Assembly (NCBI RefSeq): GCF_010907035.1
Contig: NZ_QUMK01000054.1
Location: 1 to 38,327, forward strand
DNA from: Rhodopseudomonas sp. BR0M22
GTDB taxonomy: Bacteria; Pseudomonadota; Alphaproteobacteria; Rhizobiales; Xanthobacteraceae
Reading direction: 5' to 3'
Length of the DNA stretch: 38,327 bases
How positions within the stretch are numbered: the first letter of the stretch is position 1; every line of letters begins with the position of its first letter. The notes below the pieces were generated by a model that was not told where the DNA came from, made no database searches, and saw nothing but the letters and a program-made list of their open reading frames with translations. Positions 1,498 through 29,504 of the stretch are shown here, one piece after another. A program made the position numbers and the translations under genes.

Positions 1498-3969
1498 ATG
1501 AGCATGCCGGCGATCGAACGAGCCTTTCCCCTGGTTGGACACCTGCCGCTCTCGGTGCGAGAAGTTTTGGCGCGGCGGCTGCGCGAGCTGGCGGGCTTCG
1601 GCCTGATCGCCGTCACCGCAGTCGCTGCCGCGGCGCTCGCGACCTGGTCGGTGCAGGACCCCAGCCTCAGCCACGCGACATCACGGCGCATCCACAATCT
1701 GCTCGGCTACCCGGGCGCGATCGGCGCCGATCTGGCGATGCAGATCCTCGGCCTTGGCGCGATCGGACTGCTGATGCCGGTCGCGGTATGGGGCTGGCGG
1801 ATGCTGAACCACCGCCCCTTCGACCGAACCGCGCTGCGGATGGGCGCCTGGATCCTGTGCACGATCTTCGCCGCCGGCTTCGCTTCGTCGTTTCCGCACG
1901 ATACGGCGTGGCCGCTGCCCACCGGGCTCGGCGGCGTGGTCGGCGACGCGCTGGTGCGGGCGCCGTCGCTGGTGTTCGGGCCCGGCCTGATTTTCCGTGT
2001 CATCCTGAGCCTCATCCTCGGCATCGCCGTCATGGCCACATTCCTGATCGCCGGAGGCTTCGGGTCGCGCGAACGCGACCCCGACGAGACCCCGGCCGAC
2101 GAGGATCTGCCGCTCGAGGACGAAGAAGAATCCGACCGCGGATCGGTGTCGCTCGGCTGGCTGGTGCACGCGCTGCTCAGTGCCAAGGCGCGGCTGTGGC
2201 GGCTGGCGAAGCTGTCCTATCAGGGCCTCGTCAGCAGTGCGCCGACCGGCGGCAAGCAGACCTTCGAACGGCAGGAGCCGCGGCTCGGAGGACGCGCCGC
2301 GCCGCCGATCGCGCCTGAAGCCGATCACGACGAAGACTTCGAGCCTGAGATCGCCGACGACATCGAAGACGAAGACGACGAGGAGGAAGCTCCTCCGGTC
2401 GCCCGCGCGCCGCGCAAAAAGGTCGCCCCCAAGCCGGTGGCCAAGAAGGCGCGGTTCGACCTGCCCTCGGTCAACGTTCTATCGGCACCGAAGGCATCGG
2501 ACCGGCAGCCGCTCAACAAGTCCGAGCTCGAGGCGAATTCACGCGCGCTCGAAGGCGTGCTGCAGGATTTCGGCGTGCGCGGCGAAATCATCAAGGCGAG
2601 CCCCGGCCCGGTCGTGACGCTTTACGAGCTGGAGCCGGCGCCCGGCATTAAGTCGTCGCGCGTCATCGGACTCTCCGACGACATCGCCCGTTCGATGAGC
2701 GCGCTGTCGGCACGCGTGGCGGTGGTGCCGGGCCGCAATGCGATCGGCATCGAGCTGCCGAACGCGCATCGCGAGAAGGTGTATTTGCGCGAGCTGCTCA
2801 GCGTGAAGGACGCCAACGAGACCGTGCACAAGCTACCGCTGTGTCTGGGCAAGAATATCGGCGGCGATTCGATCATCGTCGATCTCGCCCGGATGCCGCA
2901 TCTTCTGATCGCCGGTACGACCGGTTCGGGTAAGTCGGTTGCGATCAACACCATGATCCTCAGCCTGGTGTACCGGCTGCGGCCGGATCAATGCCGGCTG
3001 ATCATGGTCGATCCGAAGATGCTCGAACTCTCGGTCTATGACGGCATCCCGCATCTGCTGACGCCGGTGGTCACCGATCCGAAGAAGGCGGTGGTCGCCC
3101 TGAAATGGGCGGTGCGCGAGATGGAAGAGCGCTACAAGCGCATGGCCAAGCTCGGCGTTCGCAACATCGACGGCTACAACACCCGCCTCGGCGAAGCCAA
3201 AGCCAAGGGCGAAGAGCTGACCCGCACGGTGCACACCGGCTTCGACAAGGAGACCGGCAAGGCGATCTACGAGGAAGAGAAGCTCGATCTCGAACCGCTG
3301 CCCTATATCGTCATCATCGTCGACGAAATGGCCGACCTGATGATGGTCGCCGGCAAGGACATCGAAGGCGCGGTGCAGCGTCTTGCCCAGATGGCACGTG
3401 CGGCCGGTCTGCATGTGATCCTGGCGACGCAGCGTCCGTCGGTCGACGTCATCACCGGCACCATCAAGGCCAACTTCCCGACCCGCATCTCCTTCCAGGT
3501 CACGTCGAAGATCGACAGCCGGACCATCCTGGGCGAGATGGGCGCCGAGCAGCTGCTCGGCCAGGGCGACATGCTGTACATGGCGGGCGGCGGCCGGATC
3601 AGCCGTGTGCACGGCCCGTTCGTCTCCGACGAGGAAGTCGAGAAGGTCGTCAAACACCTCAAGGCTCAGGGCGCGCCCGAATATCTCGAGGCGGTCACCG
3701 CCGAGGAGCCTGCCGAGGGCGAAGACGGCGCGGTGTTCGACGCGACCGGAATGGGCGGCGACGGCGGCGGCGATCTGTTCCAGCAGGCGGTGGCGATCGT
3801 CAAACGCGACCGCAAGGCGTCCACCAGCTATATTCAGCGGCGCCTGCAGATCGGGTACAACCGCGCCGCCTCGCTGATGGAGCGAATGGAGCTGGAAGGC
3901 ATCGTCGGCCAGGCCAATCACGCCGGCAAACGCGAGATCCTGGTGGCCGAAGAGGATTCGAACTTTTGA
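1498..3969 (+). CDS. ftsK: DNA translocase FtsK
   Basis: An 823-residue septal DNA pump that moves chromosome dimers and terminus DNA through the closing division septum and activates XerCD at dif. The N-terminal part has four likely membrane helices (about residues 32-50, 75-100, 113-130 and 163-188), anchoring it at the division site. A linker rich in Asp/Glu (about 193-210 and 275-300) follows. The RecA-like motor carries Walker A GTTGSGKS at 473-480 and Walker B IVIIVDE ending at 609-610. The last ~65 residues (DLFQQAV through GKREIL) match the gamma winged-helix domain that reads polar KOPS sequences. The linker is much shorter than in E. coli FtsK, as is usual in alphaproteobacteria. 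It sits close behind the aminotransferase, so the two may be cotranscribed. Confidence 0.96.
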
Positions 3970-17953: not shown

Positions 17954-18844
17954 CTAACCGCCCGCCTCGAGCCGGCGGATGATGTCGTCGAGCTGGTCGA
18001 GATCGGCGTAGCGGATCTGGACCGCACCGGCACCTTCGTGGTCGTCGATCGTCACCTTCATGCCGAGCACGTCGCTGAGACGTTTCTCGAGTGCCACCGT
18101 GTCGGCGTCTTTGACCGACTTGGCGGCAGCCGTGGCGCGCGGCTTCTGCGGCTTGCGCTCCGGCACGCCTTCTTCGTGCGCGAGCGCTTCGGTCTGCCGG
18201 ACATTGAGACCTTCGGCGACGATCCGCTTGGCGATCGCCGACGGATCGGGCAGACCGATCAGCGCGCGGGCGTGGCCCGCGGTGAGTTCGCCCGAGGCGA
18301 TCAGCGACTTGACGTCGTCGGGCAGCTTGATCAGCCGCATCATATTGGCGACGTGGCTGCGGCTCTTGCCGACGATCTTGGCGATCTCTTCCTGGCTGCG
18401 ATTGAACTCGGCCGCGAGCGCCTGATAGCCGAGCGCCTCTTCGAGCGGATTGAGATCCTCGCGCTGCACGTTTTCGACGATGGCGATTTCGAGCGCCAGC
18501 GCGTCCGAGACATCGACCGGAACGATCGGCACTTCGTGCAGACCGGCGCGCTGCGCCGCGCGCCAGCGCCGCTCGCCGGCGATAATTTCGTAGCGATCGG
18601 CGGCACCCTTCACCGGGCGAACCACGATCGGCTGGATCACGCCGTGCTGCTTGATCGAGTCGGACAGTTCGCCGAGCTCGGCATCGGTGAAGGTGCGGCG
18701 CGGGTTGCGCGGGTTGGCCTTGATGAATTCGATCGGCACCTTGCGCTGCGCGCGCGGTCGCTCGGCCTGCGCCGACTCGCCGCCGACATCGCCAATCAGG
18801 CTCGCCAGGCCGCGTCCCAGGCGCGAACGGTGCTCATCGGCCAT
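17954..18844 (-). CDS. parB: Chromosome-partitioning protein ParB (CTP-dependent parS clamp)
   Basis: A 296-residue protein that loads on parS, binds CTP and spreads along DNA to form the segregation complex moved by ParA. The N-terminus carries the ParA-activating basic region RSRLGRGLASLIGD. The CTP-binding motif GERRWR is at 90-95 and the ENVQRED box at 124-130. The helix-turn-helix that reads parS is about 149-171 (SQEEIAKIVGKSRSHVANMM). A C-terminal dimer domain ends the protein. I chose the ATG at 18844 because AAGGGAG lies about six bases upstream; the frame is open to 18892. It lies downstream of parA on the same strand with a 194-base gap. Three parS sites lie 1.8-3.9 kb away. Confidence 0.97.
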   Translation of the reverse strand: MADEHRSRLGRGLASLIGDVGGESAQAERPRAQRKVPIEFIKANPRNPRRTFTDAELGELSDSIKQHGVIQPIVVRPVKGAADRYEIIAGERRWRAAQRAGLHEVPIVPVDVSDALALEIAIVENVQREDLNPLEEALGYQALAAEFNRSQEEIAKIVGKSRSHVANMMRLIKLPDDVKSLIASGELTAGHARALIGLPDPSAIAKRIVAEGLNVRQTEALAHEEGVPERKPQKPRATAAAKSVKDADTVALEKRLSDVLGMKVTIDDHEGAGAVQIRYADLDQLDDIIRRLEAGG

Positions 18845-18909
18845 CGCCGGCTCCCTTGGATTCACGTCGCTACTCCGCACTGATATAACCAAAGTTGTTA
18901 GTTGTCGTC

Positions 18910-19038: not shown

Positions 19039-19893
19039 TCAATGGGCCGTGCGAAGCTCGCGTTCGCGCTGGATCACTTCGGTCGCGAGCTTCAGATAGG
19101 CTTCGCTGCCGACGCATTTCAGATCGTAGACCAGCACCGGCTTGCCGTAGCTCGGCGCTTCCGAGATCCGCACGTTCCGCGGGATCATGGTGTCGTAGAC
19201 CTTCTTGCCCATGAACTGGCGGACGTCGGCGACGACCTGGCTCGACAGATTGTTGCGGCTGTCGAACATCGTCAGCACGATGCCGTGGATGGTGAGCGCG
19301 GGATTGAGATTGGTGCGGACCTGCTCGACGGTCTGCAGCAACTGCGACAGACCTTCGAGGGCGAAGAACTCGCACTGCAGCGGCACCAGGATCGCGTCCG
19401 CCGCCGCCATCGCATTCACAGTCAGCAGGTTGAGCGACGGCGGGCAGTCGATCAGCACGTAGGTGTAGTCGAGCGGCGGATCGATATCCTTGTTGAGCAC
19501 GCCGATCGCGTCGCGCAGCCGGAACGCGCGGTCGCTGCGATTGCCGAGCTCGAGCTCGAGGCCGGACAGGTCCATCGTCGAGGCCGCGATGTGCAGCCGA
19601 GGCACCGCGGTCGCCACCACCGCATCGCGCAGCGGCGCCTCGCCGGCCAGCACGTCGTAAGTCGAGGTGTTGCGATCGCGGCGATCGATCCCGAGCCCGG
19701 TCGAGGCGTTACCCTGCGGGTCGAGATCGACGATCAGAACTCGCTCGCCGATCGCGGCCAGCGCGGTGCCGAGATTGATTGCGGTGGTGGTCTTGCCGAC
19801 CCCGCCCTTCTGGTTGGCGAGCGCGATGATGCGCGGACGCCCGGGCTCGGAATTCACCCTATCCTCTTGATAAATATCATCAATCACGGTCAT
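19039..19893 (-). CDS. parA: Chromosome-partitioning ATPase ParA
   Basis: A 284-residue deviant-Walker ATPase that coats the nucleoid and pulls the ParB-parS complex as ParB stimulates its ATPase. KGGVGKTT at 29-36 is the deviant Walker A with its signature first lysine. DLDPQGNASTGLG is motif A' and LIDCPPSLNLLTVNAM is Walker B. It aligns with chromosomal Soj/ParA types, without the long N-terminal helix-turn-helix of plasmid ParA. Start: ATG at 19893 fits relatives, but a GTG at 19857 has a better ribosome site (AGAGGA about five bases upstream), giving 272 residues. Order rsmG-parA-parB is the standard origin-proximal cluster. Confidence 0.97.
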   Translation of the reverse strand: MTVIDDIYQEDRVNSEPGRPRIIALANQKGGVGKTTTAINLGTALAAIGERVLIVDLDPQGNASTGLGIDRRDRNTSTYDVLAGEAPLRDAVVATAVPRLHIAASTMDLSGLELELGNRSDRAFRLRDAIGVLNKDIDPPLDYTYVLIDCPPSLNLLTVNAMAAADAILVPLQCEFFALEGLSQLLQTVEQVRTNLNPALTIHGIVLTMFDSRNNLSSQVVADVRQFMGKKVYDTMIPRNVRISEAPSYGKPVLVYDLKCVGSEAYLKLATEVIQRERELRTAH

Positions 19894-20688: not shown

Positions 20689-20704
20689 AGTTTCACGTGA
20701 AACA
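20689..20704. promoter_or_regulatory. parS-like ParB-binding site 1 (one mismatch)
   Basis: AGTTTCACGTGAAACA matches the parS consensus TGTTTCACGTGAAACA at 15 of 16 positions, differing only in the first base. It lies between the rsmG start and the mnmG stop, 37 bases from a perfect site, about 1.8 kb from parB. Confidence 0.85.
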
Positions 20705-20725: not shown

Positions 20726-20741
20726 TGTTTCACGTGAAACA
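20726..20741. promoter_or_regulatory. parS ParB-binding site 2 (perfect)
   Basis: TGTTTCACGTGAAACA is an exact parS palindrome and is extended to a perfect 20-base palindrome (20724-20743, GG...CC). ParB loads here to form the partition complex. It sits in the mnmG-rsmG gap. Confidence 0.95.
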
Positions 20742-22697: not shown

Positions 22698-22713
22698 TGT
22701 TTCACGTGAAACA
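22698..22713. promoter_or_regulatory. parS ParB-binding site 3 (perfect)
   Basis: TGTTTCACGTGAAACA, an exact parS palindrome, lies in the 156-base gap between the mnmE stop and the mnmG start. It is about 2 kb from the other pair and 3.9 kb from parB. Confidence 0.95.
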
Positions 22714-25460: not shown

Positions 25461-25660
25461 GGGGGTGGTCCTGTGGAAACGAGACTGGGGGAATCGTCAG
25501 CGGAAGAAGGAGCGGAAGGAAATAACCGGAGGTCCGCAGGTCTTCAGATCGACGGCGTCTTGAGCAAGGAAGGTGCGGGAGGCTTCAAACCCGGTGCGGC
25601 GGCCGGCTCTAACGGAACCAGATCGCAACCACATTCGCCTGCTTTAGGTGGGACGACTCC

Positions 25661-25689
25661 ACTATAGAAAATCCGTCGCATCGACGCAA
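25661..25689 (-). promoter_or_regulatory. Sigma-70-type promoter candidate for rho
   Basis: On the minus strand TTGCGT (25689-25684) and TATAGT (25666-25661) are separated by exactly 17 bases. Both elements differ from the consensus by two bases or fewer, and they lie between hemJ and rho. Transcription would begin near 25655 and leave a leader of about 195 bases before the rho start codon. No transcription data are available to confirm it. Confidence 0.5.
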
Positions 25690-25722
25690 GACGATCGGCA
25701 CAGCACCGTTCGTTTCATGCCG

Positions 25723-26163
25723 TCAGAACGGTTTGACGATCACAAAGATCACTGCGGCGACCATCAGAAGAGTCGGTATCTCATTGATTACACGATAGAA
25801 TTTATGAGATCGCGTATTCCGATCGGCGGCGAAATCGCGGACGTAGCGACCCAGCATCACATGGATCACGGTCATCAGCACGACCGCAGCCAGTTTGGCG
25901 TGAAACCAGCCCGACGCAAAATAGCCCTGCTCCCAGGCAATCGCCAGACCGGCAACCCAAGCCACCATCATGGCCGGATTCATGATCGCACGGTACAGCC
26001 GGCGCTCCATGACCTTGAACGTCTCGGACTGCGTCGATCCGATCTCGGCGGTGCAATGGTAGACGAACAGCCGCGGCATATACAGCATGCCGGCCATCCA
26101 TGAGATCACTGCCACGACGTGCAGGGTCTTCACCCACGGATAGACATAGACCCACTCGATCAT
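25723..26163 (-). CDS. hemJ: Protoporphyrinogen oxidase HemJ family membrane protein
   Basis: A 146-residue integral membrane protein that oxidises protoporphyrinogen IX in heme and chlorophyll synthesis in bacteria lacking HemG/HemY. Four hydrophobic segments are visible. The conserved N-terminal block is YPWVKTLHVVAVISWMAGMLYMPRLFVYH, with His15 and His36 as likely heme or active-site ligands; it is followed by ERRLYRAIMNPAM, the GWFHAKLAAVVLMTVIH helix and the C-terminal EIPTLLMVAAVIFVIVKPF. I chose the ATG at 26163, with GGAAGA just upstream; longer in-frame ATGs at 26175 and 26283 add residues atypical for the family. It lies upstream of rho on the same strand and faces the candidate origin region. 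Confidence 0.9.
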   Translation of the reverse strand: MIEWVYVYPWVKTLHVVAVISWMAGMLYMPRLFVYHCTAEIGSTQSETFKVMERRLYRAIMNPAMMVAWVAGLAIAWEQGYFASGWFHAKLAAVVLMTVIHVMLGRYVRDFAADRNTRSHKFYRVINEIPTLLMVAAVIFVIVKPF

Positions 26164-26617
26164 TCGATCTTCCATTCCGCTGTGCCGCGAAGCTGCAACT
26201 GAATCCGGAACGCAGGACCCGCATCGCGCGTTGATCGAATGCTCGAATGCAGAGCTTTCCGCAAGCGGCACCCTTCTAATCAATATTTATAGATTCTTAA
26301 GGTTTGAGTCTAAGTGGCCGTGGATTTGACTCACCCAACGGCATTCCTGAGTTCTTCCGTCGCGGCCCACATCTCAACATCTATCCCCAGCCGCTCGACT
26401 GTTCGATGAGCTGTTGCAAGATCAGGGCGTTGCGCCGGATCGTCGCCGCATTACCGAGAGACAAATCCACATTCACCCGCTAACCTCATCACGACCCCGA
26501 AATGCTCTTCTCATCCGACCCCTGTGAAGAAAAAGCCGGGTTATCCCGACTGCGACGACCGCGGCCCCGGTTTGGTGTGGTTCTCGCCCCGTTGTTCACA
26601 GGTTACACAGGGCCACG
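26164..26617. other. Divergent intergenic region, candidate chromosomal replication origin (oriC)
   Basis: A 454-base gap between hemJ (-) and ppsR (+). It holds an AT-rich patch (about 26275-26300, CTAATCAATATTTATAG then ATTCTTAA) and three GANTC methylation sites in 41 bases (26292, 26306, 26328), plus one at 26201. Several 9-mers lie two changes from the DnaA box TTATCCACA: CTATCCCCA 26381, AAATCCACA 26463, TTCTTCACA on the minus strand at 26523, TTATCCCGA 26541 and TTGTTCACA 26592. The Caulobacter origin lies at the same boundary, beside the DUF299/ppsR-maf-coaE-dnaQ side. No perfect DnaA box is present. It must also carry the promoters of both flanking genes. Confidence 0.5.
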
Positions 26618-27457
26618 ATGCTGACCGACGGCAGCTATTTTCATCTTCATCTGGTCTCCGACTCGACCGGCGAAACCTTGATCACGGTGTCGCGGGCGGT
26701 CACGGCGCAATACGCCAACGTCACGCCGGTCGAACACGTCTATCCGCTGGTGCGCAGCCAGAAGCAGCTCGATCGCGTGTTGCAGGAGATCGAGGAGGCG
26801 CCCGGCATCGTGCTGTTCACGCTGCTGGAAACCGAGCTGGTCAACCGGCTCGAGGCAAAGTGCCAAGAGATCAACAGCCCGAGTCTGTCGATCATCGGCC
26901 CGGTGATGCAATTGTTCGAGGCCTATCTGGGCGCCTCGACCACAGGCCGTGTCGGTGCGCAGCACACCCTGAACGCCGAATATTTTCAGCGGATCGACGC
27001 GCTGAACTACTCGATGATGCACGACGACGGCCAGCACGTCGAAGGTCTGGAAGAAGCCGACGTGGTGCTGGTCGGGGTGTCGCGCACCTCGAAGACGCCG
27101 ACCTCGATCTATCTGGCCAATCGCGGCATCCGCACCGCGAATGTGCCGCTGGTCGCCGGCATCCCGATTCCGCATCAGCTCGAAACACTGAAGAAGCCGC
27201 TGGTGGTCAGCCTGCATGCCTCGCCGGAACGGCTGATTCAGGTCCGGCAGAACCGGCTGCTCAGCCTCGGCGCCGGCACCGGCAACGACTCTTATATCGA
27301 TCGCCAGGCAGTCACCGACGAGGTGCTGCTGGCGCGCAAGCTCAGCGCCAAATACGGCTGGTCGCTGCTCGACGTCACCCGCCGGTCGATCGAGGAGACC
27401 GCAGCGGCGATCATGAAATTGCTCGCCGACCGGCAGCGCCAAAGGGTGCCGGAATGA
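26618..27457 (+). CDS. ppsR: Pyruvate, phosphate dikinase / PEP synthase regulatory kinase-phosphorylase (DUF299)
   Basis: A 279-residue bifunctional regulator that uses ADP to phosphorylate, and phosphate to reactivate, a threonine near the catalytic histidine of PPDK or PEP synthase. It controls the step between pyruvate and PEP. It starts [15 protein letters not shown] and has a P-loop-like GVSRTSKT at 153-160, followed by [20 protein letters not shown], characteristic of the family. Whether the target is PPDK or PpsA cannot be read here. The homologous gene is the first one right of the origin in Caulobacter. Its TGA overlaps the ATG of maf (ATGA at 27454-27457), implying translational coupling. 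Confidence 0.93.
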
Positions 27458-28062
27458 CGCTGTGGCTCGGGCCGCAGCCGCTTGTGCTGGCTTCGCAAAG
27501 CAGCGCCCGGAAGACTGTGCTCGCCAATGCCGGAATTCCGTTCGATGCGATTCCCGCCGACATCGACGAACGCGGGATCGCGGAGGCGTCCGGCCTCAGC
27601 GCGCCGGGTGAGATCGCTGCGCTGCTGGCCACCCAGAAGGCGGCCTTCGTCAGCAATCATCATCCCGGTCGCCTGGTGCTCGGCGCCGACCAGACGCTGG
27701 CGCTCGGGGCTCGGGGCTTCAACAAGCCGGCCGATCGCGCGGCAGCCGCCAAGCAGCTCCGCGAGCTTGCCGGCCGCCGGCATGAATTGCACTCGGCAAT
27801 CGCCGTGGTTCGCAACGGCATCACGCTGTTCGCCGACGTCTCGATCGCACGGATGACGATGCGGCCGCTGACCGAAGCCGAGATCGACGCCTATCTCGAC
27901 GTCGTCGGCGACAAGGCGACCACCAGCGTCGGCGCCTATCAGGTCGAAGGTCTCGGCGTGCATCTGTTCGACGGCATCCATGGCGATCATTTCACCATCC
28001 TGGGCCTGCCGCTGTTGCCCCTGCTCGGTTTTCTGCGTAGCCAGAACCTGTTGGCGGTCTAG
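27454..28062 (+). CDS. maf: Maf-family nucleoside triphosphate pyrophosphatase
   Basis: A 202-residue house-cleaning enzyme that hydrolyses non-canonical or methylated nucleoside triphosphates to monophosphates. It begins [22 protein letters not shown], the Maf signature with the Ser-Arg pocket. It continues with [22 protein letters not shown] and [28 protein letters not shown], where the last carries conserved metal- and substrate-binding residues. The start ATG overlaps the ppsR stop by four bases. In many alphaproteobacteria aroE follows maf; here coaE follows directly after about 108 bases. Confidence 0.95.
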
Positions 28063-28170
28063 CTCGCTGGCGCTGCGCGTCAAAACAACAACAGGCTTCA
28101 GGGCCGATCACTCTCGGATCTGATCGGATCTGAAATGTCTCGCGCGGACGAAAAAGACGGAGGGGACGGA

Positions 28171-28770
28171 ATGCTGGTGCTCGGACTGACCGGTTCAATC
28201 GGAATGGGCAAATCGACCACCGCCAAGCTGTTCGCCGAAGCCGGCGTACCGGTCTATGACGCCGACGCCACCGTGCATAAGATCTACGAGAACGAGGCCG
28301 TGCCGGCGATCGAGGCGGCGTTTCCCGGCACCACGGTCGGCGGCAAGGTCGATCGCGCGCTGTTGTCGGCGAAAGTGGTGCACGATCCGGAGGCGATGCA
28401 TCGACTCGAAAAGATCGTTCATCCGATGCTGCGTGCCCATCATCAGCAATTTCTCGACGATGCCGAATCATCCGGCGCTGCAGTTGCTGTGGTCGATGTG
28501 CCGCTGCTGTTCGAGACCGGCGGCGAAAAACGCGTCGATGCCGTGGTGGTGGTGACGACCTCGCCGGAGGTGCAGCGCGAACGGATTCTGGCCCGCGACA
28601 ACATGACCCCGGACAAGCTCGATGCGATTCTGGCCCGGCAGATGCCCGATGCCGAAAAGCGCAAGCGTGCGGATTTCGTCGTGGATACTTCGAACGGACT
28701 GGACCCGGTGCGTCTGCAGATCCGCGAAATTCTCGACGCCGCTGCTAAAATGCCGCGTCGGCGCGACTGA
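28171..28770 (+). CDS. coaE: Dephospho-CoA kinase
   Basis: A 199-residue P-loop kinase performing the last step of coenzyme A synthesis, phosphorylating the 3'-hydroxyl of dephospho-CoA. Walker A is GSIGMGKS at 8-15, in [18 protein letters not shown]. The CoA-domain blocks [51 protein letters not shown] and RILARD...[19 protein letters not shown] follow. I chose the ATG at 28171 because GGAGGGG lies about seven bases upstream; the frame extends to an ATG at 28135. dnaQ follows after 35 bases, as in related genomes. Confidence 0.96.
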
Positions 28771-28805: not shown

Positions 28806-29504
28806 ATGCGTGAGATCGTCCTCGATACCGAAACCACCGGCCTCGATCCGCTGCGCGGCGATCGGCTGGTCGAAATCGGCTGCGTCGAGATCTTCAATCG
28901 GATGCCGACCGGTCGGACCTATCACCGCTACATCAATCCCGAACGCGATATGCCGGCCGAAGCCTTCGCGGTGCATGGCCTGTCGAGCGAATTTCTCGCC
29001 GACAAGCCGTTGTTCGCTCAGGTGGCCGACGAGTTCCTTGAATTCATCGGCGACGATCCGTTGGTGATTCACAACGCTTCGTTCGACATCGGCTTCATCA
29101 ATGCCGAATTGTCGAGGCTGTCACGACCCCCGGTGGCGCGCGACCGGCTGGTGGATACGCTGCTGCTGGCCCGGCGCAAGCATCCGGGCGTGTCGAACCG
29201 GCTCGACGACCTCTGTTCGCGTTACGCGATCGACAATTCGCGCCGCACCAAGCACGGCGCGTTGCTCGACGCCGAGCTGCTGGCCGAGGTCTATATCGAT
29301 CTGATCGGCGCACGGCAGTCGCAGCTCATCCTCGCCGATGTGCCGGTCGAAGTGGTTGGCGTTGCGAACGAAAGTCGCAGACGGCAGCGGCCGTCGCCGC
29401 TCCCCAACCGGGTCACCGAGGCCGATCTCGAGGCTCACCGCGCCTTCATTGCCACCATGGGCGACAAGGCGATCTGGGCCGAATACCTCCCGACTGGCGC
29501 CTGA
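28806..29504 (+). CDS. dnaQ: DNA polymerase III subunit epsilon (proofreading exonuclease)
   Basis: A 232-residue DEDDh 3'-5' exonuclease that proofreads for the replicative polymerase. Exo I is VLDTETTGLDP (Asp7, Glu9), Exo II is VIHNASFDIGFINAEL, and Exo III is RTKHGALLDAELLAEVY with the catalytic His and Asp. The C-terminal tail, ending in the family's EYLPTGA region, is the part that binds the alpha subunit. It is the last gene of the ppsR-maf-coaE-dnaQ run and convergent with secB. A hairpin at 29599-29642 sits between them. Confidence 0.96.
   Translation: MREIVLDTETTGLDPLRGDRLVEIGCVEIFNRMPTGRTYHRYINPERDMPAEAFAVHGLSSEFLADKPLFAQVADEFLEFIGDDPLVIHNASFDIGFINAELSRLSRPPVARDRLVDTLLLARRKHPGVSNRLDDLCSRYAIDNSRRTKHGALLDAELLAEVYIDLIGARQSQLILADVPVEVVGVANESRRRQRPSPLPNRVTEADLEAHRAFIATMGDKAIWAEYLPTGA

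Follow-up and report, generated by a model that had tools for sequence, protein, structure and literature searches.

The window, the whole 38,327-bp stretch of DNA that was analysed, was contig C109 of a 5.29-Mb draft genome in 159 contigs. The best named match of its PpsR protein was R. palustris XCP, followed by other Rhodopseudomonas. A 454-bp intergenic region at 26164–26617, which was assigned to neither strand, separated two oppositely oriented groups of genes. The genes parB (17954–18892, minus strand), parA (19039–19893, minus strand), rsmG, mnmG, mnmE, rho and hemJ (25723–26163, minus strand, with the start set at MIEWVYV) ran leftward, and ppsR (DUF299/COG1806; 26618–27457), a maf-like gene (27454–28062), coaE (28135–28770) and dnaQ (28806–29504) ran rightward on the plus strand. 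The order maf-coaE-dnaQ beyond ppsR is presumably that of Caulobacter as well. The parB product carried the ParB/RepB/Spo0J domain above its cut-off, and the product of the adjoining parA was a ParA-family ATPase, with no curated cut-off reached among the matches listed. A gene for the DNA translocase FtsK was present at 1498–3969, some 22 kb to the left of the gap.

The first-pass annotation of this DNA had proposed the gap as a candidate chromosomal replication origin, and its description of the surroundings proved correct. The gene orientation flipped at the gap, hemE was missing from the slot, where hemJ was found instead, and dnaA was outside the window; the genome carried its own hemE on contig C96 and its own dnaA on contig C159. 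The AT-rich patch was the AT-richest 40-mer of the 38-kb window (31 of 40 at 26274). It formed the AT maximum (26274–26313) of a conserved AT-rich/GANTC block on the plus strand (26246–26338, model R1), and a conserved DnaA-box block was located at 26436–26556 on the same strand (model R2). The AT-rich block beside the boxes was present and conserved, and it is a candidate DNA-unwinding element. The boxes, the conservation, the density rank and the R1/R2 matches described below led to the annotation of the gap as a predicted oriC.

Conservation of the intergenic region among relatives

From 313 relatives, 80 PpsR loci were kept, and the gap was aligned in 79 rows, the window and 78 loci, which share ancestry, so that counts over the rows are not counts of independent events. 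The two loci left out were L016, in which hemJ was beyond reach, and L081 of Bradyrhizobium sp. U87765, the gap of which was 1411 bp long because hemE lies between hemJ and the element. The length of the aligned gaps, including that of the window, ranged from 397 to 560 bp. The gene hemJ was on the left and leftward in 79 of the 80 loci, the remaining one being truncated by a contig end, and coaE was on the right and rightward in all 80. Wherever they were in reach, rho (73 loci), mnmE (69) and mnmG (63) were always on the left and leftward. Comparison of the gap across these relatives, which the first-pass annotation had suggested for the 9-mers, revealed that several 9-mer positions and GANTC positions were conserved in the alignment.

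R1 and R2 were sequence-only models, each built from 40 of the 79 rows. The window's own genome contained one R1 match and one R2 match, both in the gap. Of the family genomes searched (198), 87 had an R1 match, 72 an R2 match and 70 both, counts that overstate the reach of the models since some of the matched genomes probably gave training rows. In all 70 genomes with both models, the matches were on one contig and one strand, 182–231 bp apart. Under strict filters, 111 of the 198 genomes were without an R1 match and 126 without an R2 match, and one genome (G227) had a second, weak R2 match. Of the 88 R1 matches listed in the searches of the family and the order together, repeats aside, 33 own-family loci were examined, and ppsR was present in all of them. 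A search for R1 at the level of the order gave matches in 5 of 150 genomes, four of which belonged to the same family, including the window's own genome. In the fifth, from another family (L238), the AT block carried two GATTC sites and was flanked by maf on one side and hemE-hemJ on the other, and no PpsR match was found within its 3-kb locus.

The locus of Bradyrhizobium sp. U87765 (5155–7822), which was outside the training rows of the models, showed the order hemJ-hemE-R1-R2-ppsR. No hemE match was found in the other PpsR loci within the stretches fetched. In the window's own genome, a single hemE above the family cut-off was found on contig C96 (L086, G000:C96:35426-39430), flanked by fragments of bchD and bchO and thus apparently inside a bacteriochlorophyll gene cluster, and its protein was 62% identical to HemE of U87765. 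The order in U87765 is probably a relic of the ancestral one. Because this relative keeps hemE between hemJ and the putative origin, the gene was probably once located in that slot and lost from it in the window's lineage.

The region upstream of rho (25461–25722, minus strand), beside the gap, was likewise strongly conserved, reaching at least 80% in 125 of its 262 columns over 70 rows, and conservation alone is therefore no proof of an origin. This region had no match in Rfam. Its consensus fold beat column shuffles (z ~ -8.7) with an unfavourable covariation term, and it is a candidate for an unclassified rho leader.

DnaA-like boxes and GANTC sites

When both strands were scanned, the five DnaA-like 9-mers of the earlier annotation were recovered, each with two mismatches and all inside 26381–26600 of the gap. 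When the window was simulated 400 times with a first-order Markov model, no simulation gave five boxes in any 220 bp. The best conserved box was TTCTTCACA (26523–26531, minus strand), as 75 of the 79 rows had a box there. A two-mismatch box was found at the position of AAATCCACA (26463–26471, plus strand) in 42 rows, and a box at that of TTGTTCACA (26592–26600, plus strand) in 21 rows. At TTATCCCGA (26541–26549, plus strand), a two-mismatch box was present in 14 rows only, with TTATCCC widely kept, and CTATCCCCA (26381–26389, plus strand) was not conserved. The family also showed two-mismatch boxes at 26363 (64 of 79 rows), 26255 (51) and 26451 (46), positions at which the window had more than two mismatches; the family sequence around 26451–26472 was TTATCAAGAGACAAATCCACAT, which contained two adjacent boxes. 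Conservation of the five 9-mers therefore held for several positions and failed for 26381, the 9-mers themselves varied, and some had decayed in the window. As noted earlier, the perfect DnaA box TTATCCACA was absent from the window. It occurred 5 times in the whole draft versus 19 times for the reversed control, and this strong box may be avoided in the genome.

The gap ranked first in box density among the 454-bp windows of the 38-kb window. It also ranked first, unmatched by the other sampled windows, in B. erythrophlei (G001), R. palustris JSC-3b (G002) and Afipia clevelandensis (G003), for each of which about 760–800 kb was sampled. The gap of the nearest relative, R. palustris XCP (G005), had only three two-mismatch boxes and, over the 400 kb sampled, was tied with 37 windows that overlapped one another; the tie was gone once GANTC sites were added, as none of the 37 windows matched the GANTC count of the gap. 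The predicted box cluster was thus above background, and its boxes were degenerate. DnaA boxes near dnaA are expected for dnaA autoregulation, and loose groups of DnaA-like boxes were seen upstream of dnaA. The own genome had four in 421 bp (L082, 614–1034), with two in any 220 bp versus five in the gap, and JSC-3b had five in 449 bp (L088, 3377–3825) versus seven in its gap. XCP had three in 354 bp, and the dnaA loci of the other four relatives had at most three. These loose boxes perhaps serve dnaA autoregulation.

The four GANTC sites reported earlier were present in the gap at 26201, 26292, 26306 and 26328. Those at 26292–26296 and 26306–26310 were kept in 77 and 70 of the 79 rows, respectively, and that at 26328–26332 in 31 rows. 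Of 5000 random placements, 143 put four or more sites into the gap and 1402 gave a GANTC triple within 41 bp somewhere along the window. The clustering in the window alone was dropped as evidence for an origin because 28% of random placements gave such a triple. GANTC was depleted across the window (94 observed versus 211 expected), and such depletion has been reported for alphaproteobacteria (PMC3973325). Among the relatives, GANTC density was 9.5/kb in the gaps versus 2.5/kb in the rest of the locus and was higher in the gap in 78 of 78 loci. A strict CtrA motif (TTAA-N7-TTAA) was found in 1 of 79 gaps and a loose one in 27, including one in the window at 26286. The IHF motif WATCA-N5-WTR was found in 4 of 79 gaps and was absent from the gap of the window. 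Control by CtrA or IHF was not established by these counts, nor were DnaA-trios by visual inspection.

parS sites, GC skew and distance to dnaA

Two perfect parS sites were located between rsmG and mnmG (20726–20741) and between mnmG and mnmE (22698–22713), and a parS-like site with one mismatch was located at 20689–20704. These were the only three parS sites in the 5.29-Mb draft with at most one mismatch, all in the window and 3.5–5.5 kb left of the gap; at this threshold, none was found near dnaA in the draft. The two parS intergenic regions contained 0 and 1 DnaA-like 9-mers versus five in the gap.

The GC skew was analysed in relatives. Coarse skew turned from negative to positive between samples bracketing the gap, and not dnaA, in all three long contigs (B. 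erythrophlei, JSC-3b and A. clevelandensis). Fine skew was analysed by step fits in 500-bp bins, with rough intervals that assume independent bins. The step was placed at 839,001 (838,001–856,501) in XCP, 2.3 kb from the ppsR start at 841,346; at 3,164,001 (3,163,001–3,164,501) in A. clevelandensis, 3.0 kb from the ppsR start at 3,161,041; and at 1,704,501 (1,693,001–1,710,001) in B. erythrophlei, 8.4 kb from the ppsR start at 1,696,120. The step in JSC-3b disagreed, as it was placed at 3,358,001 (3,353,501–3,361,001), about 160 kb from the ppsR start at 3,195,110. In the relatives, the coarse switch thus bracketed the gap in three of three and the fine step was within 10 kb in three of four, a mixed picture overall. 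In JSC-3b, a slightly shallower dip adjoined the gap, and the signs were mixed between the dip and the minimum. This stretch of irregular skew beside the gap (G002:C1:3180001-3360000) is possibly an island or an inversion.

The rough intervals of B. erythrophlei and XCP included the gap and began about 0.6–1.0 kb short of the nearest parS. In A. clevelandensis, the gap was 1.4 kb outside the interval, which fell on the parS side of the gap without reaching parS, the nearest site being 0.6 kb away. The gene dnaA was about 134–378 kb from the gap in six of six relatives, and no R1 or R2 match was found at seven dnaA loci. The skew spoke against dnaA, and fine skew alone does not reliably distinguish an origin at the gap from one at parS. 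Taken over the relatives, the skew supported the location of the origin with a precision that ranged from kilobases to hundreds of kilobases.

Discussion

Direct observation covered the gap sequence with its conservation in relatives, its single occurrence in the draft and the short distance to parS. The locus resembled known origins of alphaproteobacteria. Cori of Caulobacter crescentus has the order hemE|ori|COG1806 (PMC1914354), and it shares with the gap ppsR on the right, an AT-rich block, DnaA boxes and nearby parAB and parS. The window differed from Cori in that hemJ, and not hemE, occupied the slot on the left, although hemE flanked the element in Bradyrhizobium sp. U87765 and the AT block in L238. 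The order hemJ-hemE-R1-R2-ppsR in U87765 matches that of Caulobacter and was counted in favour of an origin. A further difference was that most of the 79 gaps were without canonical CtrA or IHF sites and carried a conserved GANTC pair in the AT block. In Hyphomonas neptunium, the replication peak obtained by marker frequency was near hemE, with parAB about 7 kb away (PMC6650430). The hemE neighbourhood and the distance of a few kilobases to parAB/parS are similar to those of the gap; the H. neptunium origin was mapped by experiment, whereas the gap is a prediction.

A published prediction placed the origin elsewhere in the same neighbourhood, within about 6 kb. In 2008, Ori-Finder proposed for Bradyrhizobiaceae the DnaA box TGTTTCACG and located the origins of ten genomes beside gidA (mnmG), all with the palindrome TGTTTCACGTGAAACA (PMC2275245), and this prediction was taken over for O. 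carboxidovorans OM5 (PMC3091675). An origin at these palindromes, and not at the hemJ/ppsR element, would agree with the Afipia skew interval, which was closer to parS than to the gap. However, the 16-mer TGTTTCACGTGAAACA had served as the parS oligonucleotide when ParB was assayed by gel shift in H. neptunium (PMC6650430), parAB adjoined the palindromes in the window, and the palindromes were the parS sites described above, outside the predicted origin and in intergenic regions nearly free of DnaA-like boxes. The proposed box TGTTTCACG was half of parS. Forks departing from parS would meet the transcription of mnmE, rho and hemJ head-on, and the rough intervals of B. erythrophlei and XCP, a weak argument under the assumption of independent bins, included the gap and stopped short of parS. 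An origin beside mnmG with TGTTTCACG as the family DnaA box is thus considered very unlikely. The simplest reading is that Ori-Finder took parS for DnaA boxes and set the origin about 3.5–5.5 kb off. No published correction of the TGTTTCACG assignment was recognised among titles and abstracts of the open-licence literature.

The gap might instead consist of the ordinary divergent promoters and leaders of hemJ and ppsR. Promoters are present in any divergent gap, and GANTC has been reported to be enriched between genes in alphaproteobacteria (PMC3973325). In U87765, however, hemE separated hemJ from the element, and in L238 the AT block was between hemE and maf in a 3-kb locus where PpsR was unmatched. 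Promoters would also leave the box cluster and the parS neighbourhood unexplained, and we consider this explanation highly improbable. An RNA element in the gap was disfavoured as well, since Rfam gave no match there; no consensus RNA fold was obtained on either strand, a result of little power as shuffled columns gave none either. An origin beside dnaA is a common arrangement in many bacteria, and the DnaA-like boxes upstream of dnaA in the own genome, XCP and JSC-3b would fit it. Against this, dnaA was far from the gap in all six relatives, the coarse skew was already positive between the gap and dnaA in JSC-3b and A. clevelandensis (the fine JSC-3b stretches there were mixed), and neither R1/R2 matches at the dnaA loci nor parS near dnaA in the own draft were found. 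These observations made an origin at dnaA extremely improbable.

The conservation, the box cluster, the uniqueness of R1 and R2, the nearness of parS and the skew of the relatives together supported the original proposal for the gap as a strong prediction. Judged from sequence, the hemJ/ppsR gap is very probably the chromosomal oriC of the Rhodopseudomonas-like host and of its Bradyrhizobium, Afipia, Tardiphaga and Nitrobacter kin. At such an origin, DnaA would bind weak, degenerate boxes across about 26380–26600, and the bound DnaA would melt the adjacent AT-rich block at 26246–26338. Forks would depart both ways, co-directional with the flanking genes on each side, and ParB at parS, 3.5–5.5 kb to the left, would then segregate the new origins. 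The GANTC pair in the AT block makes the CcrM methylation state a likely regulator. Since canonical CtrA sites were rare and the GANTC pair was near-invariant in the AT block, it is conceivable, if rather doubtful, that the family origin has lost direct CtrA control and is gated by CcrM, with hemimethylation of the pair in the unwinding element after firing altering melting or binding. In L238, from another family, the corresponding block carries two GATTC sites, a hint that such a CcrM gate would be older than the family.

Our results suggest that an origin finder in wide use incorporates, as a species-specific DnaA box, a sequence that makes up one half of parS. The TGTTTCACG motif has since been applied to O. 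carboxidovorans and, alongside two other search motifs, in a study of Rhodobacteraceae (PMC6699656), and the database origins of the family, together with the kilobase-scale analyses built on them, therefore need checking. A 2026 paper reported that some DoriC sites mismatch the true origin, the family being unnamed in the passages concerned (PMC13342612). For a large group of bacteria, which includes phototrophs and their nitrogen-fixing and nitrifying relatives, the hemJ/ppsR gap gives an exact and testable predicted oriC and accounts for the missing hemE.
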